NCBI RefSeq assembly: GCF_019429625.1
Contig: NZ_JAHXRW010000010.1
Location: 62,001 to 126,000 of the forward strand
Source: Celeribacter sp. PS-C1
GTDB lineage: Bacteria > Pseudomonadota > Alphaproteobacteria > Rhodobacterales > Rhodobacteraceae
Length of the DNA stretch: 64,000 nucleotides
Reading direction: 5' to 3'
Shown: positions 39,624 to 62,638 of the stretch, piece by piece
Layout: the number at the start of each line of letters is the position of its first letter
How positions within the stretch are numbered: the first letter of the stretch is position 1
The notes under the pieces: generated by a model
Told to the model about the DNA's origin: nothing
Database searches by the model: none
What the model saw: the letters and a program-made list of their open reading frames with translations, nothing else
Translations under genes and position numbers: made by a program

Positions 39624-40511
39624 CTAAGTATGGCAACCGTGGCTTTTATCGTAGGCGTTCTGTGGCGGCGACGTCCACGTCCCGAGCGCACCGGGTTTGG
39701 GGGCGAAAATTTCGACCAACAGCGGGTGGCATTGTGCTGCATCTGAGGAATGCACCGTTGAGCAATCCCCACCCGGACACGCCGAAAGAGCGCCAAGGAG
39801 GTCGATCTCCGCGAAAAATTCCAAATAATCCCCGGGGCGCACCGGGCTCGCCTTCATGAAATACTGGCCTGTGTCTTTCGTGAAGCCGGTACACATGAAC
39901 ACGTTCAGAACGTCATGCACATGAGGCTCGGCTTCCGCTGGCGTCACGCCAAGCTCTTTGGCCAAGGCCCGCGTCAGGTTTGAATGGCAACAGTGATGAT
40001 ACTGCCCGCCAGACAAAAGCTGATGCGTGTAGGGATCACAGCGCGTGCCGATCACATCATGCACGGACCCACCGTATTCATCCTTGCCGTACCATGCCAG
40101 ACTGTCGCCGACGATCGTCGCCATAGGACGCAAGGACGGAAAACTGCTCCACATCCGATGCCCCGTGCTCAGATGCGTGCCATGCAGGGCGCGGGTTTTC
40201 CCGGAATAGAAACGCTCCGACAGATCCGCCGCATTCCAGAGATTAAAATCCCCGACCTGCGGACCTTCAATGCTTTTGATACGGAAAAACTGACCAGCGT
40301 TAACCCGGAACGTCGCCGCCTCACGGGGCGGAACGATCACTTCGTTAATTTTTTCCGCCCCGTCTCTTGCCTGTTGATACAAAGTGAGATCGGGCTGAGG
40401 AAGTGTCTCATTCGGATAACAGATCACGGGCGAAATGGCACGACGCGCCTGAGCATCCTCAGGCGCGTCGCAAATGTCTTTTCCAGAAGAGGAATGCAGC
40501 TCTTTACACAT
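39624..40511 (-). CDS. DUF1989 / urea carboxylase-associated family protein
   Basis: A 295-residue cytoplasmic protein. Recognisable parts are EVIVPPREAATFRVNAGQFFRIKSIEGPQVGDFNLWNA, TRALHGTHLSTGHRMWSSFPSLRP, the Cys/His-rich GGQYHHCCHSNLTRAL, and FMCTGFTKDTGQYFMKASPVRPGDYLEFFAEIDLL. This matches the DUF1989 family, often linked to urea or amine breakdown and likely metal-binding. The assigned ATG overlaps the sdhB stop (TGATG), so it may be co-transcribed with the sdh operon; a later internal start is possible because no Shine-Dalgarno is seen. Confidence 0.75.
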   Translation of the reverse strand: MCKELHSSSGKDICDAPEDAQARRAISPVICYPNETLPQPDLTLYQQARDGAEKINEVIVPPREAATFRVNAGQFFRIKSIEGPQVGDFNLWNAADLSERFYSGKTRALHGTHLSTGHRMWSSFPSLRPMATIVGDSLAWYGKDEYGGSVHDVIGTRCDPYTHQLLSGGQYHHCCHSNLTRALAKELGVTPAEAEPHVHDVLNVFMCTGFTKDTGQYFMKASPVRPGDYLEFFAEIDLLGALSACPGGDCSTVHSSDAAQCHPLLVEIFAPKPGALGTWTSPPQNAYDKSHGCHT

Positions 40512-41290
40512 CAGTGCGTGCGTTCGAGCATCATCTTCTTGATATGCGCGATAGCGGCCGCCGGGTTCAGACCTTTGGGGCAGGTTTTCGCACAGTTCAT
40601 AATGGTGTGGCAGCGGTAGAGCTTGAAGCTGTCCTCGAGGTAATCGAGACGCTCGCCGGTGGCCTCATCGCGCGAGTCGATGATCCAGCGGTAGGCGTGC
40701 AACAGAGCTGCCGGTCCAAGATATTCGTCGCCGTTCCACCAGTAGCTCGGGCAAGAGGTCGAGCAAGAGGCGCACATCACACATTCATAGAGACCGTCGA
40801 GTTTCTTGCGGTCTTCGATGGACTGACGCCATTCCTTCTCGGGACGGTTGGTCTTGGTCTCAAGCCACGGCATGATCGAGGCGTGCTGAGCGTAGAAGTG
40901 GGTCAGATCGGGAATGAGGTCTTTCACCACCGGCATGTGCGGCAGCGGGAAGATGCGCACATCGCCTTTGATCTCGTCGAGACCATAGATACAGGCCAGC
41001 GTGTTGATCCCATCGATGTTCATCGCACAGGAACCACAGATGCCCTCACGGCAAGAGCGACGGAAGGTCAGCGTCGGGTCAATCTCGTTCTTGATCTTGA
41101 TCAGCGCGTCGAGAACCATCGGACCGCATTTGTCCATGTCGATGAAATACGTGTCCACCGACGGGTTTTTCTCGTCATCGGGGCTCCAGCGGTAAATCTG
41201 GAACTTGCGAACATTGGTCGCGCCTTCAGGCTTCGGCCAAGTCTTGCCCGTCACGATCTTGGAGTTCTTGGGCAGATTGAATTGTACCAT
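40511..41290 (-). CDS. sdhB: Succinate dehydrogenase iron-sulfur subunit
   Basis: A 259-residue subunit carrying electrons from FAD to quinone. The 2Fe-2S ligands are in [16 protein letters not shown] with a later Cys, and the 4Fe-4S and 3Fe-4S ligands in [16 protein letters not shown] and [29 protein letters not shown] precedes the ATG. It is the last sdh gene in the order C-D-A-B, 12 nt after sdhA, and its stop touches the DUF1989 start. Confidence 0.97.
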
Positions 41291-41302
41291 TGGGTAATCT
41301 CC

Positions 41303-43111
41303 TTAGAACGTCCGCGCTTTCGGCGCGATCTTGGCGAGGCTGATGCCGCCTTCGGCTTCGGTCGTCAGCGGGTCCTCGATGATCGGACGGTAGCTGAGCT
41401 CGACCTCATTGCCTTCGACGCGCGAAATCGTGTGGATGCGCCAGTTCGCATCGTCACGCTCCGGGTAATCCTCATGGGCGTGCGCACCGCGGGATTCCTT
41501 ACGCGCCTCGGCGCCGTGGATCGTCGCCAGCGCGTTCGGCATCAGGTTGGTGAGTTCCAGCGTTTCCATCAGATCCGAGTTCCACACGAGGCTGCGATCG
41601 GTGACGGAGACGTCGCCCATCTTGCCGGCCACGGCGGTCATCTTCTCGACGCCTTCTTTCAGCGTCTTGTCGGTGCGGAACACGGCGGCATCGGCCTGCA
41701 TCGTGCGCTGCATTTCGAGACGCAGTTCGGCGGTCGGGATCGGGCCTTTGGCGTAACGGATACCGTCGAAACGATCGAACGCCTTTTGCACGGAGGCCAT
41801 GTTCAGTTCCGGGTTCGGCGACTTGGGGTCGACAACCTGACCGGCGCGGATTGCGGCGGCGCGGCCAAAGACCACAAGGTCGATCAAGGAGTTGGAGCCC
41901 AGACGGTTCGCCCCGTGCACGGAGGCACAGCCCGCTTCGCCCACGGCCATAAGGCCCGGCACGACAGCGGTCGGATTGTCTTTGGTCGGGTTCAACACCT
42001 CACCGTGATAGTTCGTCGGGATACCGCCCATGTTATAGTGCACGGTCGGCAGAACCGGGATCGGCTCTTTGGTCACGTCCACACCGGCGAAGATTTTCGC
42101 GGATTCGGAAATGCCCGGAAGACGTTCCGCCAGAGCCTCGGCCGGAAGGTGGCTGAGGTTGAGGAAGATGTGGTCCTTGTGCTCGCCCACACCGCGACCT
42201 TCACGGATTTCCATCGTCATCGAACGGGACACGTAGTCACGCGGTGCGAGGTCTTTGTAGGTCGGCGCGTAACGCTCCATGAAGCGCTCGCCTTCGGAGT
42301 TGGTCAGGTAACCACCCTCGCCGCGCGCCCCCTCGGTGATCAGACAGCCGGAGCCGTAAATGCCGGTCGGGTGGAACTGAACGAATTCCATGTCCTGAAG
42401 CGCCAGACCTGCCCGCGCCACCATGCCACCACCGTCGCCGGTGCAGGTATGGGCAGAGGTTGCGGAGAAATAAGCGCGGCCATAGCCACCCGTCGCCAGC
42501 ACAACCATCTTCGCGGAGAAGAGGTGGAACGTGCCGTCATCAAGTTTCCAGCAGAGCACACCCTGACACTGACCGTCGTCGGACATGATCAGGTCGATGG
42601 CGAAATATTCGATGTAGAATTCTGCGTTGTTCTTCACGGACTGGCCGTAAAGCGTGTGCAGGATCGCGTGGCCGGTCCGGTCAGCGGCGGCACAGGTGCG
42701 CTGCACCGGTGGGCCTTCACCGAATTCGGTGGTGTGACCACCAAAGGGACGCTGGTAAATCTTGCCTTCTTCGGTCCGCGAGAAAGGCACACCGTAATGC
42801 TCAAGCTCGTAAACAGCCTTGGGTGCTTCACGGGCGAGGTATTCCATCGCGTCGGTATCGCCGAGCCAGTCGGAGCCCTTGACGGTGTCATACATGTGCC
42901 ACTGCCAGTTGTCCGGACCCATGTTGGACAGGGACGCCGCGATCCCGCCCTGAGCCGCCACGGTGTGCGAGCGGGTCGGGAAGACCTTGGTCACACAAGC
43001 CGTGCGCAGACCTTGCTCAGCCATACCGAGCGTCGCACGCAGACCAGAACCACCGGCGCCAACGACGACCACGTCGTATTCGTGGGTTTCATATTCATAT
43101 GCTGCTGTCAT
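41303..43111 (-). CDS. sdhA: Succinate dehydrogenase flavoprotein subunit
   Basis: A 602-residue catalytic subunit oxidising succinate to fumarate. The FAD fold is [20 protein letters not shown], the covalent flavin His lies in [18 protein letters not shown], and active-site residues in [21 protein letters not shown] and [23 protein letters not shown]. It lies 22 nt after sdhD. The long open frame on the opposite strand of sdhA/sdhB is a shadow of strong codon bias. Confidence 0.97.
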
Positions 43112-43133
43112 TGTCTTTATTCCTTGCCGCGCA

Positions 43134-43508
43134 TCACTGAATGGCGAGTTTCAAAAGGGCGAAGAGGCCGGCTGCCATCAACGTGTAGCAAAAGCCAGCC
43201 ACGGCGATCAGCGTCAGCTTGCGCTTGATGCCGCCCACATAATCTTCGACCGCTTCGTCCACTTCGGTCTTGAGGTGGATGATGCCACCGACGAGGCAGA
43301 GCGCCGTGATGATCGCGATGCAGGGGCTGCTGTAGAACGCGAGCACCTCTTCGAGAGAATGGCCCACGGCATAGCCGAAGGTGAACACGAAGAGCGGCAC
43401 GAGCACGACGAGCGACAAGGAGGTCGCGATGGTCAGCCAGTGATGTTGCGCACCGGTCCCGCCAGAGCCCAGACCCGTCGCACGTTTGCGGTCAGTGAGA
43501 AAGTTCAT
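43134..43508 (-). CDS. sdhD: Succinate dehydrogenase membrane anchor subunit
   Basis: A 124-residue protein with three membrane segments. It starts [24 protein letters not shown], the usual SdhD opening, and has SCIAII-like and [14 protein letters not shown] segments that place the haem-side His and quinone-site residues. GAGGGGA lies 5 nt upstream of the ATG. It forms the cytochrome b anchor with SdhC. Confidence 0.93.
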
Positions 43509-43518
43509 GGCGATCCCC

Positions 43519-43917
43519 TCAGAAAATCAGAAACACAAGAGCGGTCAGCACGGTCAGGACGGTCGCCCCGATGAACATGCCCCAACCCATTTTCTCGGAG
43601 GTCTCGACATCCAGGCAGTAGCCGAAGTCCCAGATCACGTGACGCACCCGGCCCAGCATGTGGTACCAGATCGCCCAAGCGGCGGCGAGCATCACGATGT
43701 TGCCGATCCAGCTGCCGTAGAGACCGTTGAAGAAATTGAATGCCGTCTCGGAGCTTGCGGCTGCGAGGAACCAGCAGATCGCGAGGAAGACGGAGCCCAG
43801 CGATGCAATGCCGGTGATACGGACCATGATCGAGGAAATCGACGTCATCTGCGGTCGATAATAGGGTCCGATCATGAAGGGAGAGAGCGGTCGGTTGCCG
43901 CGATTCACATCAGCCAT
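43519..43917 (-). CDS. sdhC: Succinate dehydrogenase cytochrome b556 subunit
   Basis: A 132-residue anchor with three membrane segments. RPLSPFMIGPYYRPQMTSISSIMVRITG matches the SdhC quinone-site opening, and the haem ligand is the His in WYHMLGRVRHVIWDFG. It is the first gene of sdhCDAB; AAAGGACG lies 7 nt before the ATG. The paired TGTGATCACA element lies about 130-160 nt upstream, so control of this operon is probably exerted there. Confidence 0.95.
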   Translation of the reverse strand: MADVNRGNRPLSPFMIGPYYRPQMTSISSIMVRITGIASLGSVFLAICWFLAAASSETAFNFFNGLYGSWIGNIVMLAAAWAIWYHMLGRVRHVIWDFGYCLDVETSEKMGWGMFIGATVLTVLTALVFLIF

Positions 43918-44044
43918 GGTGGCGTCCTTTCACGATTGATGCGTTGAAGTTGCCTTTCGTAATAAACTTTTTTGTCCCCGAGTCACCACCTGTGAGCGCT
44001 AACAGGGGCGGTTTATCCAATCCGAAACACAGGAAAAAGCAATC

Positions 44045-44074
44045 TGTGATCACAAGAAACATTCAGTGATCACA
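44045..44074 (-). promoter_or_regulatory. Composite palindromic operator upstream of sdhCDAB
   Basis: TGTGATCACA (44045-44054) and AGTGATCACA (44065-44074) are separated by AGAAACATTC; the centre-to-centre distance is 20 bp, about two helical turns. Both are followed or preceded by AAAA/TTTT. The same arrangement, including the GAAAC(A/T)TTC core, stands upstream of sucC. It lies about 130 nt before the sdhC start. The likely binder is the GntR/FCD regulator at 61950-62603, whose own start carries the same palindrome. Confidence 0.75.
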
Positions 44075-44145
44075 AAAGTGGGCAAAATGCGCTCTCCTAG
44101 GGTTTCTCTAAGGAATTTAGGCGCTTTGGATTGGGCGCTTAGAAG

Positions 44146-44180
44146 AAACGGGGCCACGCATCACTGCGCAGCCCCGTTTT
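44146..44180 (-). terminator. Terminator hairpin after the mesaconyl-CoA hydratase gene
   Basis: Stem AAACGGGGC (44146-44154) pairs with GCCCCGTTT (44171-44179) around a 16-nt loop. On the minus strand it is followed by CTTCTAAG, a weak T tail; on the plus strand by TTTTGCG. It lies about 40 nt after the stop of the minus-strand gene and separates it from the sdh control region. Confidence 0.7.
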
Positions 44181-44218
44181 GCGATCACAAATTCAGCCTC
44201 TAAAGACTCACAGCAGAC

Positions 44219-45250
44219 TCACTGTGGCACGACAGCCCAGTAATCCAGATCCAACAAAACATCGGGGTGATACTTGCCCTCTTCGGTCTTATAGGCGAAC
44301 TCCGGCGCGCCGTGTTTGTAGGCCACAAGTCTGAGCCGCAGCGCACCAACACCTGGCGCATCCGTTTCCGCCTTATCGAGCACCTCGGTATAGGCCCGCA
44401 CGGTATCGCCGGTGAAACAGGGGTTGGCATGCGCGCCGCCGTTCAGACCCACGATCATCTGCGCATTGGCCAGACCGTTGAAAGACAGCGCCCGCGCCAT
44501 CGAAATCACATGGCCGCCATAGATCAGCCGCTTGCCATCCTCGCGATTGGTCGCATCGAAATGCACCTTCGCGGTATTCTGCCAAAGCCGCGTGGCCATC
44601 ATGTGCTCAGCTTCCTCGATGGTCACCCCGTCCACATGGTCGATCTTTTCGCCGATCTCATAGTCGCCAAACCGATGCGGCTCGCCCGCCAGCGTGAAAT
44701 TGTATTTCAGGAAGTCCAGCCCCTCGGGGATCACAAGGTCCTCGGGTGCCACCACCTTGGTCAGTTCCGGGATCACCGTCTCGGGCGCGGGCGCATCCAG
44801 ATCGCCTTTGCGCACCATCACCCAGCGGACATATTCCAGCACCGGCTCGTCGAACTGATTGAGACCCGTCGTGCGCACATAGACCACGCCGGATTTACCA
44901 TTCGAGTTCTGTTTAAGACCGATCACCTCTGAGACCGAGCGCAGCGTATCGCCGGGGTAGACCGGCTTAAGCCACCGCCCCTCGGCATAGCCAAGGTTGG
45001 CGACCGCATTGAGAGAAATATCCGGGACGGTTTTGCCAAAGACCACATGGAAGGCGATCAGATCGTCCACAGGGCTTTTCTCAAGCCCGCAGTTCTCGGC
45101 AAACTCGTCAGAGGAATAAAGCGCATGCCGCGCCGGATAGAGCGCATGATAAAGCGCGCGTTCGCCGCCCGACACGGTGCGCGGCACGGCGTGCTCGATC
45201 ACCTGCCCTACGTGGTAATCCTCAAAAAAACGTCCCGGATTGGTTTTCAC
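44219..45250 (-). CDS. mch: Mesaconyl-CoA hydratase (MaoC-like double hotdog)
   Basis: A 343-residue (R)-specific hydratase converting mesaconyl-C1-CoA to beta-methylmalyl-CoA in the ethylmalonyl-CoA pathway. It opens RFFEDYHVGQVIEHAVPRTVSGGERALYHALYPARHALYSSDEFA and has a second hotdog with RFGDYEIGEKIDHVDGVTIEEAEHMMATRLWQNTAKVHFD and YGGHVISMARALSFNGL. The start is a GTG with GGGAGGA 8 nt upstream. It closes the four-gene unit thioesterase-NnrU-DUF1737-hydratase, an order I also associate with Rhodobacter sphaeroides. Confidence 0.92.
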   Translation of the reverse strand: MKTNPGRFFEDYHVGQVIEHAVPRTVSGGERALYHALYPARHALYSSDEFAENCGLEKSPVDDLIAFHVVFGKTVPDISLNAVANLGYAEGRWLKPVYPGDTLRSVSEVIGLKQNSNGKSGVVYVRTTGLNQFDEPVLEYVRWVMVRKGDLDAPAPETVIPELTKVVAPEDLVIPEGLDFLKYNFTLAGEPHRFGDYEIGEKIDHVDGVTIEEAEHMMATRLWQNTAKVHFDATNREDGKRLIYGGHVISMARALSFNGLANAQMIVGLNGGAHANPCFTGDTVRAYTEVLDKAETDAPGVGALRLRLVAYKHGAPEFAYKTEEGKYHPDVLLDLDYWAVVPQ

Positions 45251-45266
45251 CTCAATGGTCCTCCCA

Positions 45267-45470
45267 CTATAGCTGTCCCAGCTTCACCTCGGGCGAATAT
45301 TCCCCCTCGGCCTCCTTTGTGACCGCCTGCGCGCACCGCATCTTTCCCGATGCGGCGTCGAAGGCGTAGCTGGGGTCGCCATAGAGCGCCCAGCCCTTGT
45401 TCAAAGCCTCTGTCACCTTATGACAAAAGGCCGATGTGTCTTCTTCGGTCAGCAACCTGTAGGCTTTCAT
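45267..45470 (-). CDS. DUF1737 small protein
   Basis: A 67-residue soluble protein: MKAYRLLTEEDTSAFCHKVTEALNKGWALYG, followed by a short strand-rich tail with YSPEVKLGQL. This fits the DUF1737 pattern. GGGAGTGAGAG lies directly before the ATG. It sits between the NnrU-like gene and mesaconyl-CoA hydratase with gaps of 11 and 16 nt, so it is part of the same transcript. Its position in an ethylmalonyl-CoA operon is the only hint of role. Confidence 0.8.
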   Translation of the reverse strand: MKAYRLLTEEDTSAFCHKVTEALNKGWALYGDPSYAFDAASGKMRCAQAVTKEAEGEYSPEVKLGQL

Positions 45471-45481
45471 CTCTCACTCCC

Positions 45482-46033
45482 TCACATCGGAAACGGGTTA
45501 TATCCAAGCCAGATATGTATCCCCGCAATCGCGCCGAAGACCACGAGAGAAATCACCACCAGACGAATATCGCCCGCAAGACTGCCGCCTTGATACCGCT
45601 CTGGCGCAGACTCCGAACGGTTGATCAACGTCATCTCGGCGAGCGCCCAAAGGATCATGCCGCCAAAGAGCACGAGAGACGCCGCATCAGAATTCACCAA
45701 GAGATGCGCCACAGCCCAAACCACCACACCGGTCAGCATCGGGTGCCGCATCTTGGCCCGCAGACGGCTTTTCGATTGGCCGACCCCAAACAGAAGCACT
45801 GCGATTATCATCAGCGTGTTGTTCACATGGCGCAGATAGGGTGGCAGGGCGTAGAGATCGTAAGTCTCGCTCATCCGGAACCCCACCACCATCAACACGA
45901 GGCCGATGAGGTTGCCCGTTGCAACAAGCGCTGGTCCCTTCTTATCGCCGAGTGCCGCGCGAGCCTCCGGCATCAGTCGTTTGAAAAGATGGGAGCCGCA
46001 CCAGATCAGCAGGCCCAGGATGAGAAGAGGCAT
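45482..46033 (-). CDS. NnrU family membrane protein
   Basis: A 183-residue protein with five or so membrane segments. It has the family features LIWCGSHLFKRLMPEARAALGDKKG, the middle MRHPMLTGVVVWAVAHLLVNSDAASLVLFGG and a final HIWLGYNPF. NnrU is known near denitrification genes and is related to a fatty-acid or isoprenoid methyltransferase-like membrane fold; its reaction is not known. It starts 3 nt after the malyl-CoA thioesterase stop, with GGAG 6 nt upstream. Confidence 0.85.
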   Translation of the reverse strand: MPLLILGLLIWCGSHLFKRLMPEARAALGDKKGPALVATGNLIGLVLMVVGFRMSETYDLYALPPYLRHVNNTLMIIAVLLFGVGQSKSRLRAKMRHPMLTGVVVWAVAHLLVNSDAASLVLFGGMILWALAEMTLINRSESAPERYQGGSLAGDIRLVVISLVVFGAIAGIHIWLGYNPFPM

Positions 46034-46036
46034 AAT

Positions 46037-46891
46037 TTACTCCATGGCTAAAATCGCTTCGTGTTTCGCAAGCATCGCTCGCGCCGTCACAATATGCAGA
46101 TTTTCCACGATTTTCCCATCAACAACCGCAACGCCTTCGCCTTTTGCCTCAGCGTCCTCAAAAGCCGCAATCTGACGCTGGGCCAGAGCGATCTCTGCCT
46201 CGCTTGGTGCGAAGGCCGCGTTGGCAATCTCCAGCTGCGCCGGGTGAATGAGCGTCTTGCCATCAAAGCCCATGTCGCGCCCCTGCTCGCATTCGGCCTT
46301 GAGACCTTCGTCGTCTTTGAAGGCATTATAGACGCCGTCGAGGCAAATCACCCCATAGGCGCGCGCCGCGATCAGGCACATATGGAGCCCGCCCATCATC
46401 GGAAGGCGGTCGGCCCGGAACCGCGTGTTCAACTCTTTCGCCAGATCGTTCGTCCCCATGACGAACCCTGCCATGCGCGGATGCGCGGCGATCTCGGCGG
46501 CGTTCAGCATCCCCTTCGGCGTTTCCATCATCGCCCAGAGCGGCACATCGGGAATGGCCTGCGCCAGTTCTTCGACCATTTCGGCGCTCTCGACCTTCGG
46601 CAGGAGAATCCCGTCAATGTCGGCGCCAACGAAGGCCGCCACATCATCGCGTCCCCACTGGGTATCAAAGCCGTTCACCCGCACGATTTTGGCACGATTG
46701 CCGTAACCACCCTGAGCGAGGGCCTCTTTCAAGAGTGCGCGCGCGTTTACCTTTTCATCCGGCGACACAGCATCTTCGAGATCAAAAAGGATCGCGTCAC
46801 AGGCCAACCCCTTGGCCTTTTCCAGCGCACGTTCTTTCGAACCGGGGATGTAGAGAGCCGAACGATAGGGACGGTTGGCGACTTGGGTCAT
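46037..46891 (-). CDS. mcl2: L-malyl-CoA thioesterase / CoA-ester lyase family (Mcl2-like)
   Basis: A 284-residue CitE-like TIM-barrel enzyme. It opens RPYRSALYIPGSKERALEKAKGLACDAILFDLEDAVSPDEK and has GILLPKVESAEMVEEL, WAMMETPKGMLNAAEIA, MGTNDLAKELN and GFDGKTLIHPAQLEIANAAF. Its length and company (first gene of the operon with mesaconyl-CoA hydratase) point to the (3S)-malyl-CoA thioesterase Mcl2, which turns malyl-CoA into malate and CoA, rather than the longer Mcl1 lyase. Lyase activity is not excluded. The ATG at 46891 has GGAGG 11 nt upstream; the frame is open for 18 more codons. Confidence 0.85.
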   Translation of the reverse strand: MTQVANRPYRSALYIPGSKERALEKAKGLACDAILFDLEDAVSPDEKVNARALLKEALAQGGYGNRAKIVRVNGFDTQWGRDDVAAFVGADIDGILLPKVESAEMVEELAQAIPDVPLWAMMETPKGMLNAAEIAAHPRMAGFVMGTNDLAKELNTRFRADRLPMMGGLHMCLIAARAYGVICLDGVYNAFKDDEGLKAECEQGRDMGFDGKTLIHPAQLEIANAAFAPSEAEIALAQRQIAAFEDAEAKGEGVAVVDGKIVENLHIVTARAMLAKHEAILAME

Positions 46892-46907
46892 TTGATTCTT
46901 TTCCTCC

Positions 46908-46924
46908 GCAATATTATTGCGCAA
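46908..46924 (-). promoter_or_regulatory. Palindromes just upstream of the malyl-CoA thioesterase ribosome site
   Basis: GCAATA-T-TATTGC (46908-46920) overlaps a second palindrome, TTGCGCAA (46917-46924). Both sit directly upstream of the Shine-Dalgarno (46903-46907) of the first gene of the ethylmalonyl-CoA operon. A bound repressor there would block transcript elongation or initiation. Confidence 0.4.
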
Positions 46925-47158
46925 GAGGCCACACAAACGCACCAATCTGCAAGGGTAAATTTTCCGCAGCGCAGAATTTCTCCACGTTGCGCCCTATGAA
47001 AACCTCCCTGAGCGCGGTCGGGCAACCGCTTTCTTAACCCTTTTTCGGCAGGCTCATGTTCACACCGGGACGTCAAAACGAGGGATACCCCAGCACCGGA
47101 CGCCGCGCGTCATTTCTTTTGCAAAGCATGACGCGCCAAAACGGAAAAGGACAAGACG

Positions 47159-47476
47159 ATGATGACACGGATTGCCACTCTGACCGGAGCCGCTCTGCTC
47201 GTGGCTACGACGATTATTGCCACCCCAGCTATGGCGCAACAAAACTGCGCCCAGCGCGCTCAAATCTTGGACAGGCTCGCAAGCAAATATGGCGAAAGCC
47301 GCCAATCCATCGGTCTCGCGCCCAATAATGGCGTGGTCGAGGTCTTCGCCTCCACCGAGACCGGCACCTGGACGATCCTGATGACCACGCCCAACGGCGT
47401 CAGCTGCCTGATCGCCTCCGGTCAGGCCTATGAGACCCTCGCCGAAGTGGCCGTCACGAAAGGCGATGACGCTTAA
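47159..47476 (+). CDS. Conserved hypothetical exported protein
   Basis: A 105-residue protein with a clear Sec signal ending ATPAMA. The 80-residue mature part starts QQNCAQRAQILDRLASKYGESRQSIGLAPNNGVVEVFAS and includes WTILMTTPNGVSCLIASG, with two Cys that could form a disulfide. I recall similar short periplasmic proteins across Rhodobacterales but know no function. AAAAGGA lies 7 nt before the first of two adjoining ATGs. Its last bases overlap the convergent TSUP gene by 4 nt. Confidence 0.8.
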   Translation: MMTRIATLTGAALLVATTIIATPAMAQQNCAQRAQILDRLASKYGESRQSIGLAPNNGVVEVFASTETGTWTILMTTPNGVSCLIASGQAYETLAEVAVTKGDDA

Positions 47477-48228
47477 GCCGCCAGAACCTCCCAGATCAGT
47501 TTGCTCCCGGTGATCAGAAGAAACACATAGGCCAACCCGAAAAACAGCTTTTCCGGCACTTTGTGATGCATCCAGACCCCAGCCAACACACCGACGACAG
47601 CCGCCGGGATAAGGGTCAGATCAGCGATCGAAGTCTCTTTCGAGAAAATACCGACAAAGGCGTAGGGCACGACTTTCATCAGGTTCACCGCCCAGAAGGT
47701 CAGCACACTCGACGCTTGATAGGTCGTCTTATCCATCCGCTTTGACAGCATATAGACAGCGGCAGGTGGGCCTCCGGCATGGGAAATGAAACTGGTGAGC
47801 CCCGTGACCGCGCCCCAAAACAGCCCCGCACCCGTGCCAAGCTCACGTTTCGGCGGGGTGATCCAGCGCCGCGCTTTTGCCAGCTGCCAGACCACAAATC
47901 CAATTGCGACAATCCCGATCAAAAGCTTGAACACCGCAGGATCGGCCACGCCATAAAGCAACGTTCCGATCACAATTCCGGGAATGGCCCCCAGGATGAG
48001 AACACCCGCCACGCGCATATCCCATTTGCGCCAAAACAGTTTAACGGCGGTCACATCCATGACCATCAGCAATGGCAACATCAGTCCCACCGCCTGCCCC
48101 GGCGTGAGAATCAAGGCCAGAAAAGGCGTGGCCGCAAAGGCGGCAGCAGAACCGAAACCTCCCTTGGACATGCCCGCAAAAATCACCGCCGGCACGGCAA
48201 AAAGGTAGAAATTGAGATCAAGCGTCAT
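47473..48228 (-). CDS. TauE/SafE (TSUP) family membrane transporter
   Basis: A 251-residue membrane protein with about eight segments and the motifs IFAGMSKGGFGSAAAF and GLTSFISHAGGPPAAVYML, typical of the subgroup annotated as sulfite exporter or permease. It is distinct from the longer TSUP protein at 27.5 kb. I start at the ATG at 48228; 20 upstream in-frame residues are charged and unlike a membrane start. Substrate unknown. Confidence 0.87.
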   Translation of the reverse strand: MTLDLNFYLFAVPAVIFAGMSKGGFGSAAAFAATPFLALILTPGQAVGLMLPLLMVMDVTAVKLFWRKWDMRVAGVLILGAIPGIVIGTLLYGVADPAVFKLLIGIVAIGFVVWQLAKARRWITPPKRELGTGAGLFWGAVTGLTSFISHAGGPPAAVYMLSKRMDKTTYQASSVLTFWAVNLMKVVPYAFVGIFSKETSIADLTLIPAAVVGVLAGVWMHHKVPEKLFFGLAYVFLLITGSKLIWEVLAA

Positions 48229-48282
48229 CAGCACAGCCTTTGGGCAACGAGAGGTTTTTCCCTGAAAATATCGAGGGGTTAG

Positions 48283-49353
<1,071 letters not shown>

Positions 49354-49376
49354 TCTCGAAAGAGAGTGAGACATTC

Positions 49377-49407
49377 AAAGCCCGCGGACATGCTCCGCGG
49401 GCTTTTT
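49377..49407 (+). terminator. Rho-independent terminator of mdh
   Basis: A 12-bp perfect stem, AAAGCCCGCGGA (49377-49388) and TCCGCGGGCTTT (49394-49405), with loop CATGC, followed by TT and C. Confidence 0.92.
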
Positions 49408-49575
49408 CGTATTTCGCGAGACCTGCACCCCTGCTAACCTGATGCAAATGCTTCAAAAGCTTGCCAGAAACCGAGAGCAGAGCGACGTTATCTTGACCTC
49501 TTACGCATCCCGAAACCCGACCCAACCCCGCGTTTTGCTTTCTGCGAGAAAGATCGAGGGGTCGTTTCTTTTGGA

Positions 49576-50586
49576 ATGGGTCGCCTGATGACGGGGACGC
49601 CTCCCACTTGGGCCGTCGCAGCTCTGGGCGACGAACCCGCGCCTCTGATTGCCGCCTTCGCCCGACATCACCTAGCCATCGGCGCCGCTGAGGTTCACGT
49701 GTTTTTGGATCGACCGAACCCGGAAGTCGAAAAGTTGATCGGGGACCGTGACGGGGTTTCCATCACGACCTGCGATCAATCCTATTGGGCGCGTGTGAAC
49801 AACGGCAAGCGGCCGGAACGCCACACAGGTCGGCAGAAATTCGTCTCCACGAGCGTTTACAATACCTCCTCTTGCGATTGGCTCCTGCATTGCGATGTCG
49901 ATGAATTCATCGCCGATGGTACAGCGCTCTCGAAGGCGCTTGGCAAGGCAGATCGCACCAAGGGGCTCGTCATCCGCAATGCAGAACGCGTCTACCTGCC
50001 CGGCGCTCCGGGTGAGATGTTATTCGAGGGCGGGTTCCGGCAGCCTGTTGCCCTTGAGGAGGACGAGATGCAATCGCTTTACGGGCGGTTCAGCAAGTTC
50101 CTTTCCCAAGGCTTCACCGGCCATCGCACTGGTAAGACCATCGTACCTACCGGGCAGGCCTGGGAAATGGGCGTGCATTATCCGAAAATTCTGGCGGATG
50201 GCTCCAGACCGCCTGTGGTCTCGACCGAAAGACGTCTTTTGCTGCATTTCGACGGGCTGACACCGCTGCATTACGCGATAAAGCTGCTCAAGAAATCATT
50301 CGAGAATTACTCCGGCCCGAAACGCAAACTCGGCGCGGCGCGCGAGGCGCAATACCGCTTTGCTCGCAACCACGCCGATCGCCCGCGCGAGATCCTGCGG
50401 CTGGTGGAGGGGGTACAATCGCTTGATACCCGCCAGGCGGAAAGCCTCTTGGCACTCGACCGGTTGCGCCTCGATCCCTTTATGCCCAAAGACTGTGACG
50501 ATCTTGATCTGACACGCGCCACATTCGATGCGCTGTTGCGGGAGAGGGACGGCGAGATTTTGGCCAAGGCCGGACTTGATATGTAA
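49576..50586 (+). CDS. Glycosyltransferase family 2-like protein
   Basis: A 336-residue cytoplasmic protein. Early WAVAALGDEPAPLIAAFARHHLAIGAAEVHVFLD and the metal-binding SCDWLLHCDVDEFI (DxD) match the bacterial Glyco_tranf_2_4/DUF-type glycosyltransferases found in exopolysaccharide or capsule loci. Here no such locus is nearby, and the gene stands between mdh and an outer-membrane protein gene. The start could also be the ATG at 49588. Donor and acceptor unknown. Confidence 0.78.
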   Translation: MGRLMTGTPPTWAVAALGDEPAPLIAAFARHHLAIGAAEVHVFLDRPNPEVEKLIGDRDGVSITTCDQSYWARVNNGKRPERHTGRQKFVSTSVYNTSSCDWLLHCDVDEFIADGTALSKALGKADRTKGLVIRNAERVYLPGAPGEMLFEGGFRQPVALEEDEMQSLYGRFSKFLSQGFTGHRTGKTIVPTGQAWEMGVHYPKILADGSRPPVVSTERRLLLHFDGLTPLHYAIKLLKKSFENYSGPKRKLGAAREAQYRFARNHADRPREILRLVEGVQSLDTRQAESLLALDRLRLDPFMPKDCDDLDLTRATFDALLRERDGEILAKAGLDM

Positions 50587-50600
50587 AAAAACGGACACGA

Positions 50601-50627
50601 AAAAGCCGGACACATGGCCCGGCTTTT
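50601..50627. terminator. Bidirectional terminator between glycosyltransferase and outer-membrane protein genes
   Basis: Stem AAAAGCCGG (50601-50609) and CCGGCTTTT (50619-50627) around a 9-nt loop. The arms give T tracts on both strands, serving the convergent genes ending at 50586 and 50649. Confidence 0.85.
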
Positions 50628-50648
50628 CTATCGCGTTCCGACGATGGA

Positions 50649-51308
50649 TCAGAAGTTGTAGGTCACACCAAAGTTCAGCGCATTGGTGATGATGTCGCTC
50701 TTAAGGTTGCCGCCGCCATCAAGGTCGACGTCAAGCTGGCTATAGGTGCCTTTGTATTCCGTGAAAACATCCCAGCGGTCGTTCAGCTCATAGCTGGCGC
50801 CCATCACCAAAGCGACGGTCGGACCGGCGATCTGATATTCGATCGTGTCGGTGTTGGCCGTAACCACCTCGACATGCGGGATCACCATCCCGGCGGAGAC
50901 GCTCACATAGGGCGTGAAGCTGTTCCACAGGCCCGGCCAGCGCCAGATCGGACCGACGGTCAGGTTGTTCAACCCGTCGGTGAACTCGAGCGTCGAGAAC
51001 CCGTTTGCCGCCATGTCATCCTCGTCGGCGTAGACCTTGGTGTGGTTGAAATCGGCGATCCAGCCAAAGTTGTCCCGCACCCAGTAGGTGCCGCGAATGC
51101 CGTAATAGGGCGGCATGTCAAAGCTCTTGCCGTCCCAGCCCGTGGTGAAGTCGAAATCATCCACGCCATCGTTGCCCTTCACAGAGCTGTGCGGCGCAGT
51201 TTGGTAGCCGCCGTAGAGAGAGAGGCTGAAATCGCCTGCGTTTGCTGCCAGCGGCGTGGCCAGAAGCGCGACAAGCGCCAATGAGGCTTTCGATCCAGAA
51301 ATATGCAT
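50649..51308 (-). CDS. Outer-membrane beta-barrel protein, LpxQ/lipid A oxidase-like
   Basis: A 219-residue protein with a Sec signal (ASLALVALLATPLAANA) and alternating beta strands ending in Phe (GVTYNF), the outer-membrane signal. The text GDFSLSLYGGYQTAPHSSV, GKSFDMPPYYGIRGTYWV and GLNNLTVGPIWRWPGLWNSFTPYVSVSAG resembles Rhodobacteraceae proteins annotated as lipid A oxidase (LpxQ-like). Oxidase activity is not shown for these and OmpW-like porin function is an alternative. The ATG at 51308 follows CGGGA. It is divergent from sucC across a 371-nt control region. Confidence 0.8.
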   Translation of the reverse strand: MHISGSKASLALVALLATPLAANAGDFSLSLYGGYQTAPHSSVKGNDGVDDFDFTTGWDGKSFDMPPYYGIRGTYWVRDNFGWIADFNHTKVYADEDDMAANGFSTLEFTDGLNNLTVGPIWRWPGLWNSFTPYVSVSAGMVIPHVEVVTANTDTIEYQIAGPTVALVMGASYELNDRWDVFTEYKGTYSQLDVDLDGGGNLKSDIITNALNFGVTYNF

Positions 51309-51539
51309 GATTTTTCCCGAGGTATCCGTGGGTGAGTCTTGCCCTTTGAATACGAAATTCACGTCAAACAGGCAAGGAAAGCGGCCTGTGCAAAGCCGCG
51401 CGAAAGCGTCGCGCCCCGTGATAGAGTGAAGCATGTTAGCGTTAGACACCTCCGTCCCACTCGGACGCACCTCTCTAAAAGCCTCAAATCCGGCTAAAAT
51501 TCCATGGTCGATTCGAAAAACGGATTGGAATATGAATTT

Positions 51540-51570
51540 TGTGATCACACGAAACTTTCCTGTGATCACA
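51540..51570 (+). promoter_or_regulatory. Composite palindromic operator upstream of sucCD
   Basis: Two perfect TGTGATCACA sites (51540-51549 and 51561-51570) flank CGAAACTTTCC; centre-to-centre distance is 21 bp. Runs of T before and A after extend each palindrome. This matches the element upstream of sdhCDAB almost base for base, including a GAAAC(A/T)TTC core. It lies about 110-140 nt before sucC, in the divergent region shared with the outer-membrane protein gene. Confidence 0.78.
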
Positions 51571-51593
51571 AAACGCCAAAACACGGGCGTTTT
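51570..51593 (+). promoter_or_regulatory. Second inverted repeat in the sucC leader
   Basis: AAAACGCC (51570-51577) and GGCGTTTT (51586-51593) form a perfect 8-bp inverted repeat with an 8-nt centre, abutting the downstream TGTGATCACA. It could be another protein site or an RNA hairpin in the leader; no T tract follows. Confidence 0.5.
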
Positions 51594-51679
51594 ACCGCCA
51601 ACAAGCCAAAAAACCATTTCTTATGCCCCGCAGCCAATGGCATACACGGGTCAATCGAACCAGGGAGAGGACATCTCTA

Positions 51680-52873
51680 ATGAATATCCACGAGTATCAG
51701 GCGAAAGCCCTTCTCAAGGAATACGGCGCGCCGGTTTCGGACGGTCGTGTCGTTCTCAATGCAGCCGATGCGAAAACCGCAGCCGGTGAACTTGACGGCC
51801 CACTGTGGGTCGTGAAAGCCCAGATCCACGCAGGTGGTCGCGGCAAAGGTTCCTTCAAGGAAGCTGGCGCTGGCGAAAAAGGCGGCGTGCGCCTCGCGAA
51901 ATCCGTCGAGGAAGCCGCAGAGGAAGCCAACCGCATGCTCGGCCACACGCTGGTCACGCATCAGACCGGCCCGGCAGGCAAGCAAGTGAACCGCATCTAC
52001 ATCGAAGACGGTTCCGACATCGAAAAAGAGCTTTACCTCGCTCTGCTCGTCGATCGTCAATCCTCCCGCGTCTCCATCGTGGCCTCCACCGAAGGCGGCA
52101 TGGACATCGAGGAAGTGGCTGACAAGACGCCCGAGAAAATCCTTTCCTTCTCCATCGACCCGGCCACCGGCCTTCAAGGCTTCCACGGCCGCCGCGTCGC
52201 ATTCGCTCTCGGTCTCGAAGGCAAGCAGGTCAAACAGTGCGCCGCGCTGATTTCCAACCTCTATCGTCTGTTCATCGACAAAGACATGGAGATGCTCGAG
52301 ATCAACCCGCTGATCGTGACCGACACGGGCGATCTGAAATGTCTCGACTGTAAAGCCGGCTTCGACGGCAACGCGCTCTACCGCCACGCCGACATCGTTG
52401 GCCTGCGCGACGAGACCGAAGAAGACCCGAAAGAACTGGCCGCTTCCCAGCACGACCTGAACTACATCGCGCTTGACGGTGAGATCGGCTGCATGGTGAA
52501 CGGTGCGGGTCTGGCGATGGCCACCATGGACATCATCAAACTCTACGGCGCTGAGCCTGCCAACTTCCTCGACGTGGGCGGCGGTGCGACCAAAGAGAAA
52601 GTGACCGAAGCCTTCAAAATCATCACCTCCGATGAGAACGTCAAAGGCATCCTCGTGAACATCTTCGGCGGCATCATGCGTTGCGACATCATCGCCGAAG
52701 GCGTGATCGCGGCTGTGAAAGAAGTCGGCCTGCAGGTTCCGCTCGTTGTGCGCCTCGAAGGCACCAACGTGGAGCTTGGCAAAGAGATCATCAACAACTC
52801 CGGCCTCGACGTGATTGCGGCGGACGATCTCAAAGACGGCGCCCAGAAAATCGTGAAAGCGGTCAAAGGGTAA
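51680..52873 (+). CDS. sucC: Succinyl-CoA synthetase beta subunit
   Basis: A 397-residue ATP-grasp subunit of the enzyme that makes ATP or GTP from succinyl-CoA. It starts [19 protein letters not shown] and has [44 protein letters not shown], and [27 protein letters not shown] lies about 9 nt before the ATG at 51680. It is the first gene of sucC-lipoprotein-sucD under the composite operator. Confidence 0.97.
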
Positions 52874-52877
52874 CCTG

Positions 52878-53387
52878 ATGCGCCAGTGGGTATCATTCAT
52901 CGCAGTTTCTGCTTTTGCCTTTTCGTTGACGGCTTGCGTCGATGGGACGACATCCCCGACAACTTCGGGACCTGTCGCACCTAGTAGCAAATCCGTCGAC
53001 TTGACGGGCGCAGTGACCCTGTTCCAAAGCGTCTGCTTGGATGGTGCTGCCTCGCCTGCAAAAGCGAAGGCTGCGATCGATGGCCTGCCCATGCGGCAGC
53101 ACCCCGAGACTGGGACCTACTACCACAACAGCCTGAACCTGTCCTTTAAGCTTATCCAAGACGATGGCGTTAGCACGTGTTCGATGGTGTTCGCATCTCG
53201 CGACCCCGCCGGACAACTCGCAATCGCATTCTCAGCAGCCGCCCAATCCGATTCCTCTATCAAAGTGGATGTGGCATCTGGTTACGCTGAAGCTAATGGA
53301 CCCAAAGGCACCAAATTCACTTTCAGACCGGTTCCGATTTCGGGCGACGTTCCCCTCTACAACGCACGTCTGACATCCGGCAAATAA
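52878..53387 (+). CDS. Hypothetical lipoprotein inserted between sucC and sucD
   Basis: A 169-residue protein with a lipoprotein signal ([14 protein letters not shown]; lipobox LTAC, lipidated Cys20), a Ser/Thr/Pro-rich linker, then a compact domain with [27 protein letters not shown] and [18 protein letters not shown]. It starts 4 nt after the sucC stop and ends 13 nt before sucD, so it is translated from the same mRNA. Codon use is somewhat less GC-biased than its neighbours, suggesting later insertion. I recognise no domain. A periplasmic lipoprotein has no evident job with the cytoplasmic synthetase. Confidence 0.8.
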
Positions 53388-53400
53388 GAGAGATCTGATA

Positions 53401-54288
53401 ATGGCAATTCTCGTAGACGAAAACACCAAGGTGATCTGTCAGGGCTTCACCGGCTCGCAAGGCACCTTCCACTCTGAACAAGCCATCGCGTATGGCACTA
53501 AAATGGTTGGCGGCGTGACCCCGGGCAAAGGTGGTTCGACCCACCTCGACCTGCCGGTCTTCAACTCCGTGCACGAAGCCAAGCACGTCACCGAAGCCAA
53601 TGCTTCCGTGATCTACGTGCCGCCGCCGTTTGCTGCGGACTCCATCCTTGAGGCAATCGACGCCGAGATGGAACTCATCATCTGCATCACCGAGGGCATT
53701 CCGGTGCTCGACATGATGAAGGTGAAGCGCGCGCTGATGGACTCCAAGTCCCGCCTGATCGGTCCGAACTGCCCGGGTGTCATCACGCCGGACGCCTGCA
53801 AAATCGGCATCATGCCGGGTCACATCCACAAGCGTGGCTCCGTGGGCGTCGTAAGCCGCTCTGGCACGCTGACCTATGAGGCTGTGAAACAGACCTCTGA
53901 CTTGGGCCTCGGCCAGTCCACCGCAGTGGGCATCGGCGGCGACCCGATCAAAGGCACCGAGCACATCGACGTACTCGACATGTTCCTCGACGATCCGGAA
54001 ACCACCTCGATCATCATGATCGGTGAAATCGGGGGCTCCGCAGAAGAAGAAGCCGCCGAATTCCTCGCCGAGCAGAAGAAAAAAGGCCGTTGGAAACCGA
54101 CCGCTGGCTTCATCGCAGGCCGCACCGCCCCTCCGGGCCGCCGCATGGGCCACGCAGGCGCCATCGTCGCCGGTGGTAAAGGCGACGCGGAATCCAAGAT
54201 CGAAGCAATGAAATCTGCTGGCATCATCGTGGCCGACAGCCCGGCCACGCTGGGCGAAGCCGTGCAGGAAGCCATTGCCAAAGGCTAA
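53401..54288 (+). CDS. sucD: Succinyl-CoA synthetase alpha subunit
   Basis: A 295-residue subunit with the CoA-binding fold ([31 protein letters not shown]) and the phospho-histidine loop [29 protein letters not shown] lies 9 nt before the ATG. It is separated from sucA by 151 nt that contain two hairpins. Confidence 0.97.
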
Positions 54289-54301
54289 GGCGTAAAGCGC
54301 C

Positions 54302-54373
54302 ATGCAGCCTTGCGAAGAGAGGCCTGCATTTGACAAAATTCGCCTGCGCCCTTTGTAAAGAAAGGCGCAGGCG
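54302..54373 (+). repeat. Two hairpins in the sucD-sucA spacer
   Basis: The first pairs ATGCAG (54302-54307) with CTGCAT (54324-54329). The second is stronger: CGCCTGCGCC (54341-54350) with GGCGCAGGCG (54364-54373), extendable by TTT/AAA with one bulged C. No T tract follows either. They may be partial terminators or RNA-stability elements that set the ratio of SucCD to SucAB. Confidence 0.65.
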
Positions 54374-54439
54374 CACCCACAAAAGGCAATGCGATCCTGC
54401 CCTCGAAACGGAAACGCACCCCAGATCAAGGTCAAACCG

Positions 54440-57412
<2,973 letters not shown>

Positions 57413-57416
57413 TCCT

Positions 57417-58916
57417 ATGTCCGTTGAAGTCCGCGTCCCGACCCTGGGTGAATCCGTGACCGAAGCCACCGTCGCCACCTGGTTCAAAAAGCCCGGCGAC
57501 ACCGTGGCGGTCGATGAAATGCTCTGCGAGCTGGAAACCGACAAGGTGACCGTCGAAGTGCCCTCCCCCGCTGCTGGCGTGCTGGGTGAAATCGTCGCCG
57601 CCGAGGGCGAGACCGTGGGTGTCGACGCACTCTTGGCCACGCTGTCTGAGGAAGGCAACGCAGGCCCCGAAGAGGTCGCCCCGCGTCACCACTCCGAAAT
57701 GGTCGAAGACAAACCCGCCGCCTCCGGTGGCTCCGTCGACATCATGGTGCCGACCTTGGGCGAGTCTGTGACCGAAGCCACTGTGGCGACCTGGTTCAAA
57801 GCCGTGGGTGACAGCTTTGAGGCCGACGAGATGCTCTGTGAGCTGGAAACCGACAAGGTCTCCGTCGAAGTTCCGGCCCCGGCTGCGGGTGTGCTGACCT
57901 CCATCATCGCGAACGAAGGCGACACGGTCGCCGCGGGTGGCAAACTGGCCGAGATGTCCTCGGGTGCAGGTGCCGCCGCTGCGAAACCTGCCGCCGCCGC
58001 TCCGGCTGCGGCCCCTGCCGCCTCAGGCAAAGACGTCGAGAATGCGCCGTCGGCCAACAAACTTATGGCCGAAAAAGGTGTCGATCCCTCGACCGTCTCC
58101 GGTTCCGGCAAAGATGGCCGCATCATGAAAGAAGACGTGCTGAACGCGCTGAACAAACCGGCGGCTGCCCCGGCCCCGGCTGCGGCTCCTGCCGCTCCGC
58201 GCGCTGCCGAAGACGTGGCCCGCGAAGAGCGCGTGAAAATGACCAAGCTGCGTCAGACCATCGCGCGTCGCCTGAAAGAGTCGCAAAACACCGCCGCCAT
58301 GCTCACCACCTACAACGAGGTGGACATGACCGAGGTGATGGCGCTGCGCAACCAGTACAAAGACCTCTTCGAGAAGAAACACGGCGTGCGCCTCGGCTTC
58401 ATGTCCTTCTTCACCAAGGCCTGTGTCCACGCGCTGAAAGAAGTGCCGGAAGTGAACGCCGAGATCGACGGCACCGATGTGGTTTACAAGAACTACGTCA
58501 ACATGGGCGTCGCTGCGGGCACCCCGCAGGGCCTCGTCGTTCCTGTCATCCGCGATGCCGACAGCATGTCCTTCGCCGAGATCGAAAAAGCCATCTCGGA
58601 AAAAGGCAAACGTGCGCGTGACGGCAAACTGTCCATGGCGGAAATGCAGGGCGGCACCTTCACCATCTCCAACGGTGGTGTCTATGGCTCCTTGATGTCC
58701 TCCCCGATCCTGAACCCCCCGCAGTCCGGCATCCTCGGCATGCATAAAATTCAGGACCGTCCGATGGCCATCAACGGTCAGGTCGTCATCCGCCCGATGA
58801 TGTATCTCGCCCTGTCCTACGATCACCGCATCGTCGACGGCAAAGGCGCCGTGACCTTCCTCGTGCGCGTCAAAGAAGCGCTGGAAGATCCGCGTCGTCT
58901 GTTGATGGATCTGTAA
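57417..58916 (+). CDS. sucB: 2-oxoglutarate dehydrogenase E2 (dihydrolipoyl succinyltransferase) with two lipoyl domains
   Basis: A 499-residue E2 core. Two lipoyl domains are visible with lipoylated lysines in ETDKV at Lys43 and Lys147, spaced 104 residues apart and nearly identical in the surrounding [18 protein letters not shown]. An Ala/Pro-rich linker leads to the E1/E3-binding domain ([19 protein letters not shown]) and the catalytic core with [14 protein letters not shown] containing the active His. E. coli SucB has one lipoyl domain. AAGGG lies 8 nt before the ATG at 57417. A terminator follows. Confidence 0.96.
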
Positions 58917-58924
58917 AACCATAT

Positions 58925-58954
58925 GGGCGGGCCGAATGGCCCGCCCTCCTTTTC
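58925..58954 (+). terminator. Terminator after sucB
   Basis: Stem GGGCGGGCC (58925-58933), loop GAAT, stem GGCCCGCCC (58938-58946), then TCCTTTTC. It probably reduces read-through toward lpd. Confidence 0.85.
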
Positions 58955-59026
58955 TCAAGACGCGCGTGACCCTTCTTCTATATCGCATCGCGACCCTGAC
59001 CCGCACAGTAGAGCGCTGAACCGCAA

Positions 59027-59293
59027 ATGACCCGAGAGACAGATAGCAAGACTTCTGCCCTGACATCCCGCCTCGCCCGTCTCGACGCGGCGCAGGTTCA
59101 GGCGGCTCAGGTCGTTCTGGCGGTTCTCGTGCTCAGCGTCTCAAGCGCGGTGGGTCACTCTGGTCTGTTCAACGCGCATTTCGCCATGATCGGCCAAATC
59201 TTTGGCGGGCTGTGGCTGGCGCTTGCGGCGATGCAACTCGTTCAAGCCGTGCAAAAAGACGCGACCAAAGAGACTGAGGCAGAGGACGCATGA
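59027..59293 (+). CDS. Small two-helix membrane protein
   Basis: An 88-residue protein with two membrane segments (VQAAQVVLAVLVLSVSSAV and MIGQIFGGLWLALAAMQLV) and an acidic tail ending ETEAEDA. It overlaps the MAPEG gene by 4 nt (ATGA). No Shine-Dalgarno is obvious. I recognise no family. Location between sucB and lpd suggests shared transcription with lpd but not shared function. Confidence 0.7.
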   Translation: MTRETDSKTSALTSRLARLDAAQVQAAQVVLAVLVLSVSSAVGHSGLFNAHFAMIGQIFGGLWLALAAMQLVQAVQKDATKETEAEDA

Positions 59294-59685
59294 CCCCCCT
59301 CCTCACCCTCCTCGCCCTCGCTGGCCTCTTGCACATCGCGCAATTCGTGGTGGCCTCTTATATGGCGAACGTCGATCTGGGGCCGGGATACACCACCTCG
59401 CCCCGCGACCGGGCACCCAGCCGCGAGATGCGCAAGACCACGGCGCGGATGCTGCGCGCCTATGACAATCACATTCAGATGTTCCCCTTCTTCGCGGCGG
59501 GCGTGTTCCTGATCCACCTGACGGATCAGTCGAGCGCCGTGACCCTCAGCGCGGGCGTGGGCTATCTGATCGCAAGGGTGCTTTACGTGCCCGCCTATGC
59601 TTTCGGCTGGCAGCCGTGGCGATCCTATATCTGGATGATCGCCATGACCTGCTGCGCCATTCTGTTCATCGCCGCGCTGATCTGA
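59290..59685 (+). CDS. MAPEG family membrane protein
   Basis: A 131-residue protein with four membrane segments. The MAPEG features are [21 protein letters not shown] after the first helix and the later [21 protein letters not shown]. Eukaryotic members handle eicosanoids and glutathione; bacterial ones are poorly known. It lies 31 nt upstream of lpd. Confidence 0.87.
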
Positions 59686-59716
59686 GCGGCTCGAAATACT
59701 GACCAAGGAGAAGACC

Positions 59717-62609: not shown

Positions 62610-62638
62610 AAATGTGATCACAAAGACGGGAATGTCAA
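62610..62638 (-). promoter_or_regulatory. Promoter and TGTGATCACA operator of the GntR gene
   Basis: On the minus strand, TTGACA (62638-62633) is followed after 17 nt by ACATTT (62615-62610), a weak -10. TGTGATCACA (62613-62622) lies in the spacer and overlaps the -10. A start site seven bases on would fall at or next to the ATG at 62603, consistent with a leaderless transcript repressed by its own product. Confidence 0.6.

Follow-up and report, generated by a model that had tools for sequence, protein, structure and literature searches.

The DNA analysed here is a window of 64,000 nucleotides from Celeribacter sp. PS-C1 of the Rhodobacteraceae (contig NZ_JAHXRW010000010.1, positions 62,001 to 126,000 of the forward strand), in which two operons on opposite strands, sdhCDAB and sucCD-sucAB-lpd, are each preceded by a pair of short palindromes. 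The identities of sdhC, sdhB and sucC were confirmed by NCBIfam, and the genes at 51680-61111 encode succinyl-CoA synthetase and 2-oxoglutarate dehydrogenase, all but sucC being named by translation alone. Judged by their conservation in relatives, the pairs are very probably operators of the known regulon of AkgR, a GntR-family regulator whose orthologue lies in the same window. The features are as follows, with their basis in brackets.

44065-44074, no strand: AkgR-type site, upstream member of the sdh pair, AGTGATCACA (sequence)
44055-44064, no strand: spacer of the sdh pair, sequence not kept in relatives (alignment of pairs)
44045-44054, no strand: AkgR-type site, downstream member of the sdh pair, TGTGATCACA (sequence)
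44012-44038, minus strand: A/T-tract stretch downstream of the sdh pair, about one tract per helical turn (family profile)
44034-44038, 44025-44027 and 44012-44016, minus strand: individual sdh A/T tracts (read off the sequence)
43991-44004, no strand: CceR-like palindrome TGTGAGCGCTAACA, between the sdh pair and the predicted -35 (consensus match)
43981-43986, minus strand: predicted -35 of sdhC, GTGACT (family-wide position)
43519-43917, minus strand: sdhC (NCBIfam)
40511-43917, minus strand: sdhCDAB operon (sdhC and sdhB by NCBIfam; sdhD and sdhA from translations)
51434-51447, no strand: CceR-like site upstream of the suc pair (consensus match)
51540-51549, no strand: AkgR-type site, upstream member of the suc pair (sequence)
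51550-51560, no strand: spacer of the suc pair, sequence not kept in relatives (alignment of pairs)
51561-51570, no strand: AkgR-type site, downstream member of the suc pair (sequence)
51570-51619, plus strand: phased A/T-tract stretch of suc (family profile)
51570-51573, 51578-51581, 51590-51594, 51600-51604 (one internal C), 51608-51613 and 51616-51619, plus strand: individual suc A/T tracts (read off the sequence), the last overlapping the predicted -35
51680-52873, plus strand: sucC (NCBIfam)
51680-61111, plus strand: sucCD, sucAB, lpd and small open reading frames between them, assumed to be a single operon (sucC by NCBIfam, the rest from translations)
61950-62603, minus strand: akgR orthologue, regulator with GntR and FCD domains, start codon assumed (domain and homology searches)
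62613-62622, no strand: single AkgR-type site, 9 bp ahead of akgR with its start codon as assumed (sequence)

Two spaced palindrome pairs in one genome

Upstream of sdhC (minus strand), two GTGATCAC octamers lie at 44046 and 44066, 20 bp apart from centre to centre, and upstream of sucC (plus strand) two more lie at 51541 and 51562, 21 bp apart. The octamer is exact in 4/4 paired sites and extends to a perfect TGTGATCACA in three of them (44045-44054, 51540-51549 and 51561-51570); the fourth, at 44065-44074, reads AGTGATCACA, with A as its first base and one mismatch to TGTGATCACA. An initial sequence-only reading of the window had placed palindrome pairs here and considered them unlikely to be due to chance, and both points stand. 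Allowing up to one mismatch gives 6 copies of TGTGATCACA in the window compared to a mean of 1.75; none of 100 shuffles reaches 6. Across the whole genome (3,866,278 bases), the window's two pairs are the only octamer pairs spaced 16-24 bp apart, and widening the spacing to 14-26 bp yields no further one; about 0.009 such pairs per genome are expected from base composition. Perfect TGTGATCACA sites number nine genome-wide, four of them in the window (44045, 51540, 51561 and 62613) and five elsewhere, of which two lie 127 bp apart on contig 1 and at least three appear to fall inside coding frames.

Conservation of the pairs in the family and beyond

We searched 295 genomes of the source's GTDB family, one per genus save for one genus with two, for two GTGATCAC octamers with 6-18 bases between them (14-26 bp spacing). 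The pair is present in 267/295 genomes, and the reversed pattern used as a control gave 0 matches in each of the 295. Counted by hand at any allowed spacing, there are two pairs in 200 genomes, one in 48, three in 14, four in 4, six in 1 and none in 28. An order-level draw found the pair in 147/149 genomes, all of the same family and partly the same genomes as in the family sample, and a class-level draw found it in 4/4 family members and 8/285 other genomes, with the reversed control matching 2/289. Since the eight loci outside the family gave no tblastn match to sdh or suc proteins within about 1.5 kb on each side, the arrangement before these operons is seen only in the source's family. Two of these eight loci hold a distant AkgR-like gene. 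One locus outside the family (L164:992-1020) has a GTGATCAC pair, spaced 21 bp, some 148 bp ahead of the gene for a distant GntR regulator, which is 25% identical to that of the window.

Within the family, the genes next to the pairs were read in two sets of loci, a first one of 40 stretches from 37 of 39 genomes with listed pair positions plus the window, and a second one of 38 stretches from 31 new genomes and second places of two used ones, some of which share genera. Both sets were picked for carrying pairs, so that their counts inform on position and not on frequency. All 71 pairs of the first set (38 genomes) stand before sdhC (34), sucC (36) or sucA (1), and 60 pairs of the second set stand before sdhC (29) or sucC (31). 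The latter are part of 64 further pairs (second set and two earlier loci), of which one precedes a fumC-like gene and three, spaced 16 or 18 bp, adjoin no tested gene. In the genomes with a single pair that were read (G286, G120, G154, G151, G390 and G150), it lies before sucC in 6/6. The sequence-only reading had named conservation before sdhC and sucC orthologues in close relatives as the check on its proposal, and this conservation turned out to be strong.

The spacing is narrower still than the search demanded: of the 131 pairs before sdhC, sucC or sucA, 120 are spaced 21 bp and 11 are spaced 20 bp even though 14-26 bp were allowed. This conserved spacing of two helical turns fits cooperatively binding dimers, as had been proposed for both operons. 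Pairs spaced 14-18 or 22-26 bp, as far as they were inspected, mostly adjoin no tested gene and look like background. In 3/16 relisted genomes with at least three pairs (G285, G135 and G191, from three genera), the sucC pair is extended on its upstream side by one more octamer at a distance of 21 bp. Such GTGATCAC triples at 21 + 21 bp before sucC lie at L258:1908-1957, L259:1519-1568 and L260:11410-11459.

Pairs before a fumC-like gene occur in two genera (L040:1501-1529 of G042, 21 bp; L241:2985-3014 of G265, 22 bp), where the name, for a class II fumarase-like product, comes from reading the translation alone. This suggests an extension of the regulon to fumarase in these two genera; as a general third target, fumC was rejected, given that an exact pair precedes it in only these 2/25 genomes (19 of the 25 having been picked for at least three pairs) and not in the source genome. 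Isolated pairs were also seen before a VUT-type transporter gene (L264:1544-1571 of G230, 20 bp) and near a potF-like gene (L262:1558-1586 of G276, 21 bp), both named from translations only, and may be lineage-specific targets or chance.

The regulator encoded in the window

The protein encoded at 61950-62603 combines an N-terminal GntR domain (PF00392, 45.4 bits) with a C-terminal FCD domain (PF07729, 69 bits), each of them passing the gathering score, which places it in the FCD subfamily of the GntR family. It has a match at 1e-20 in 277/295 family genomes; a stricter orthologue cut-off of our choice (E <= 1e-70) leaves 265, counted by hand. The pair occurs together with the orthologue in 260 genomes, with 5 having only the orthologue, 7 only the pair and 23 neither (Fisher p 1.7e-23, uncorrected for shared ancestry). 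Among the five with only the orthologue, G040 and G291 still carry, before sucC, two sites 21 bp apart that show one mismatch, and the remaining G147, G155 and G166 are 71-92% complete. A single GTGATCAC at 62614, which the sequence-only reading had not used, stands just before the assumed start of akgR itself, and such an own site is found in 17/24 parsed orthologues including that of the window (32 tried), mostly the closest relatives by score. It is likely to serve autoregulation.

A link to the published system is provided by Cereibacter johrii and Luteovulum azotoformans, close relatives of Rhodobacter sphaeroides, whose loci were located via a 24-base R. sphaeroides motif printed in PMC4344238. 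In both, the orthologue adjoins sdhB and is 74 and 73% identical to the window's protein, respectively, with the next match at no more than 34%, and pairs stand before both sdhC and sucC. This neighbourhood fits the published numbering and the position of RSP_0981, which we take to be AkgR; orthology to RSP_0981 is concluded by way of these two species. R. sphaeroides carries sucCD as RSP_0967-6, sdh as RSP_0974-6 and the GntR gene as RSP_0981, with the latter predicted to control sucCD, sdh and the 2-oxoglutarate dehydrogenase genes (PMC4344238), and GTGATCAC is among the sites of R. sphaeroides AkgR, which is called an activator (PMC6365646). The window likewise has GTGATCAC sites before both its sdh and its suc operon. 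The sequence-only reading, which had proposed one regulator for both operons and suggested this GntR protein for binding tests, very probably pointed to the right gene; what it did not recognise is that a related bacterium had already furnished both the regulator and its targets (PMC4344238 and PMC6365646).

Phased A/T tracts between the pairs and the promoters

Downstream of the pairs, the A/T content of family promoters rises and falls with the helical turn. If x is counted from the base that follows the downstream octamer, peaks lie near x = 2, 12, 22, 32, 42 and 49 for sucC and near x = 2, 12, 22, 32 and 43 for sdhC in both genome sets, and over x = 1-60 the profiles of the two sets correlate at 0.88 (sucC) and 0.82 (sdhC). 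Aligned power near the 10-bp period is 1.11 and 1.25 for sucC and 0.62 and 0.86 for sdhC, and 0/2000 rotations reach any of these values. With the sets pooled, the tracts of the unrelated sdhC and sucC promoters coincide in phase (r 0.75 with no shift applied). When the promoter profile of sdhC is set against that of sucC, the best shift is 11 bp, though weak (r 0.32). The sucC periodicity has a median z of 4.11 in 63 promoters with the pair (63 of 67, four being too short) as opposed to 0.03 in 17 that have neither the pair nor a strong orthologue (17 of 23 such genomes; p 2e-5). The sequence-only reading had merely noted A/T runs on both sides of the pairs; regular phased tracts do lie downstream, a regularity that it had missed. 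As a separate observation, the regions upstream of sucC at L180 and L183 (genomes G109 and G195) are strongly periodic without an exact pair, and L180 has one degenerate site, TGTGATCAAA.

For sdhC, the best -35 matches start at x = 58-61 in 44/63 promoters and the best -10 matches at 81-83 in 40/63. If the promoter matches are right, transcription would start at about x = 94 for sdh and, judged from column composition, at about x = 85 for suc; this would place the dimers near -98/-118 for sdhC and -90/-110 for sucC, and the sucC tracts near -43, -53, -63, -73 and -83. At such positions, the C-terminal domain of the RNA polymerase alpha subunit (alpha-CTD) can bind minor grooves in Escherichia coli.

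Other elements near the operons

CceR-like palindromes, scored throughout by consensus, lie at 43991 and 51434 in the window, and matches of at least 11/14 occur in 13/63 sdhC and 8/67 sucC promoter regions compared to 0 and 1 in shuffled ones. Between a mesaconyl-CoA hydratase-like gene and the sdh operator, an inverted repeat of high GC content with a run of T behind it (44146-44180, found by eye) is probably a terminator. A copy of TGCGATCACA adjoins this repeat at 44180.

Proposed mechanism and alternative explanations

We propose that each GTGATCAC palindrome binds one dimer of AkgR, a GntR-family activator of the FCD type, and that two dimers would sit two helical turns apart on the same face of the DNA, where they may bind cooperatively. 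Their places would be distant from the predicted start sites, at roughly 90 and 110 bp upstream for sucC and 98 and 118 bp for sdhC, and from there bound AkgR would activate sdhCDAB and sucCD-AB-lpd together. The A/T tracts between pair and -35 might act as a minor-groove track for the alpha-CTD of RNA polymerase or as a bend in the DNA, and the single site at the akgR start could mediate autorepression. Taken as a whole, tandem AkgR operators that jointly activate the two operons are a reading in which we have considerable confidence. More tentative, and to our minds somewhat short of probable, is the idea of an undescribed, family-wide activation architecture in which AkgR dimers at a fixed 21-bp pitch (two, sometimes three) form an array in helical register that is linked to RNA polymerase by the A/T track. 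Under such an arrangement, the distance between operator and promoter, with the predicted -35 at about +49 for sucC and +60 for sdhC, could change by whole turns only.

Several points weigh against these proposals. For this organism the assignment to AkgR is one of sequence comparison, and neither the Fisher test nor the rotations are corrected for shared ancestry. Seven genomes have the pair without a strong orthologue, one of them (G114) rated 100% complete and the others less so (four at 73-77%, two at 91-93%), and 7/24 parsed akgR genes are without an exact own site, with no GTGATCAC seen near akgR in the two Cereibacter-type loci either. Regarding the tracts, the upstream control side has a power of 0.06-0.13 that only 0-2 of its own 500 rotations reach, which means a weak signal there as well. 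The excess of bending in a wedge model is modest, at mean z of 1.3 and 1.9 compared to -0.01 and 0.4 upstream. The predicted sucC promoters are scattered, with the commonest -35 and -10 places (x = 49 and 73) holding 7/67 each. Finally, L180 (z 7.7), L183 (7.8) and L182 (3.6) are periodic without a strong orthologue, and the tracts are thus not strictly tied to AkgR.

This last point lends some weight to an explanation of the phased tracts outside AkgR action, as basal UP elements or sites of a nucleoid protein like H-NS, given that 2/17 genomes without a strong orthologue are strongly periodic and a third moderately so. In two unrelated promoters, however, the tracts keep phase with the pair, and most genomes that lack a strong orthologue show them only weakly. 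We consider this explanation unlikely, if by no means negligible. Distinctly less probable is that the pairs are repressor operators from which AkgR would be released by an effector to free sdh and suc. GntR regulators are mostly repressors, and the single site near the akgR start codon would fit repression. Yet the pairs end about 48-60 bp upstream of the predicted -35, which is far for simple steric repression, and AkgR is called an activator in PMC6365646.

That a different GntR paralogue acts at the pairs could be argued from the many GntR-like candidates per genome and from a GntR-like protein of Pseudomonas simiae, sharing 32% identity with AkgR, for which GTGATCAC has been proposed as well (PMC6365646). 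Against it speak the co-occurrence, the Cereibacter-type neighbourhood and the own sites at akgR, all of which favour the gene at 61950-62603 and make a paralogue very improbable. We rate a composite operator, in which AkgR-type dimers would flank a specific site for a second factor, lowest of all, with hardly any likelihood. The sequence-only reading had described a conserved, near-palindromic spacer core, GAAAC(A/T)TTC, and suggested that a second factor might bind there. The core is indeed common to both copies in the window, but these are the only 2/71 spacers that contain it, and a second factor at the core is therefore unsupported. The spacers share little sequence beyond being rich in A/T (mean 0.61; 57/71 with an A/T run of at least 4), and the core was rejected as not conserved in relatives.

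Relation to known systems and significance

The preferred reading of tandem AkgR operators joins the window to the AkgR regulon of Rhodobacter (Cereibacter) sphaeroides through the same orthologous regulator (by neighbourhood and identity), the same targets and the same GTGATCAC motif (PMC4344238 and PMC6365646). To what is known of that regulon, the present analysis may add the two-turn tandem geometry, the occasional third site and the phased A/T tracts. No description of these three was found in the literature searched, which did not cover the main AkgR paper, so that their absence from print is not established. With regulator and target operons already known, the strict geometry and the phased A/T track may be new details; the two-turn pitch and the third site are facts of the sequence, and the function of the A/T track is our hypothesis.

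A likeness exists to tandem CRP-dependent (class III) promoters, at which several activator dimers are placed in helical register upstream of RNA polymerase. AkgR belongs to a different protein family, its spacing is fixed at about two turns, and the DNA from the pair to the -35 is occupied by phased A/T tracts. In Rhodobacteraceae, the LacI-family regulators CceR (PMC5507952) and GapR (PMC4052901), which we take to be one regulator, also act on central carbon metabolism. Candidate CceR sites lie in both promoter regions of the window; the protein family and the motif differ from those of the AkgR system, and such sites occur in a minority of relatives.

The analysis names an operator and a regulator through which, in a large bacterial family, succinate dehydrogenase is linked with succinyl-CoA synthetase and with 2-oxoglutarate dehydrogenase. 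If the A/T track is functional, hundreds of natural promoters would be at hand to study the part of helical phasing in connecting activators bound far away with RNA polymerase.

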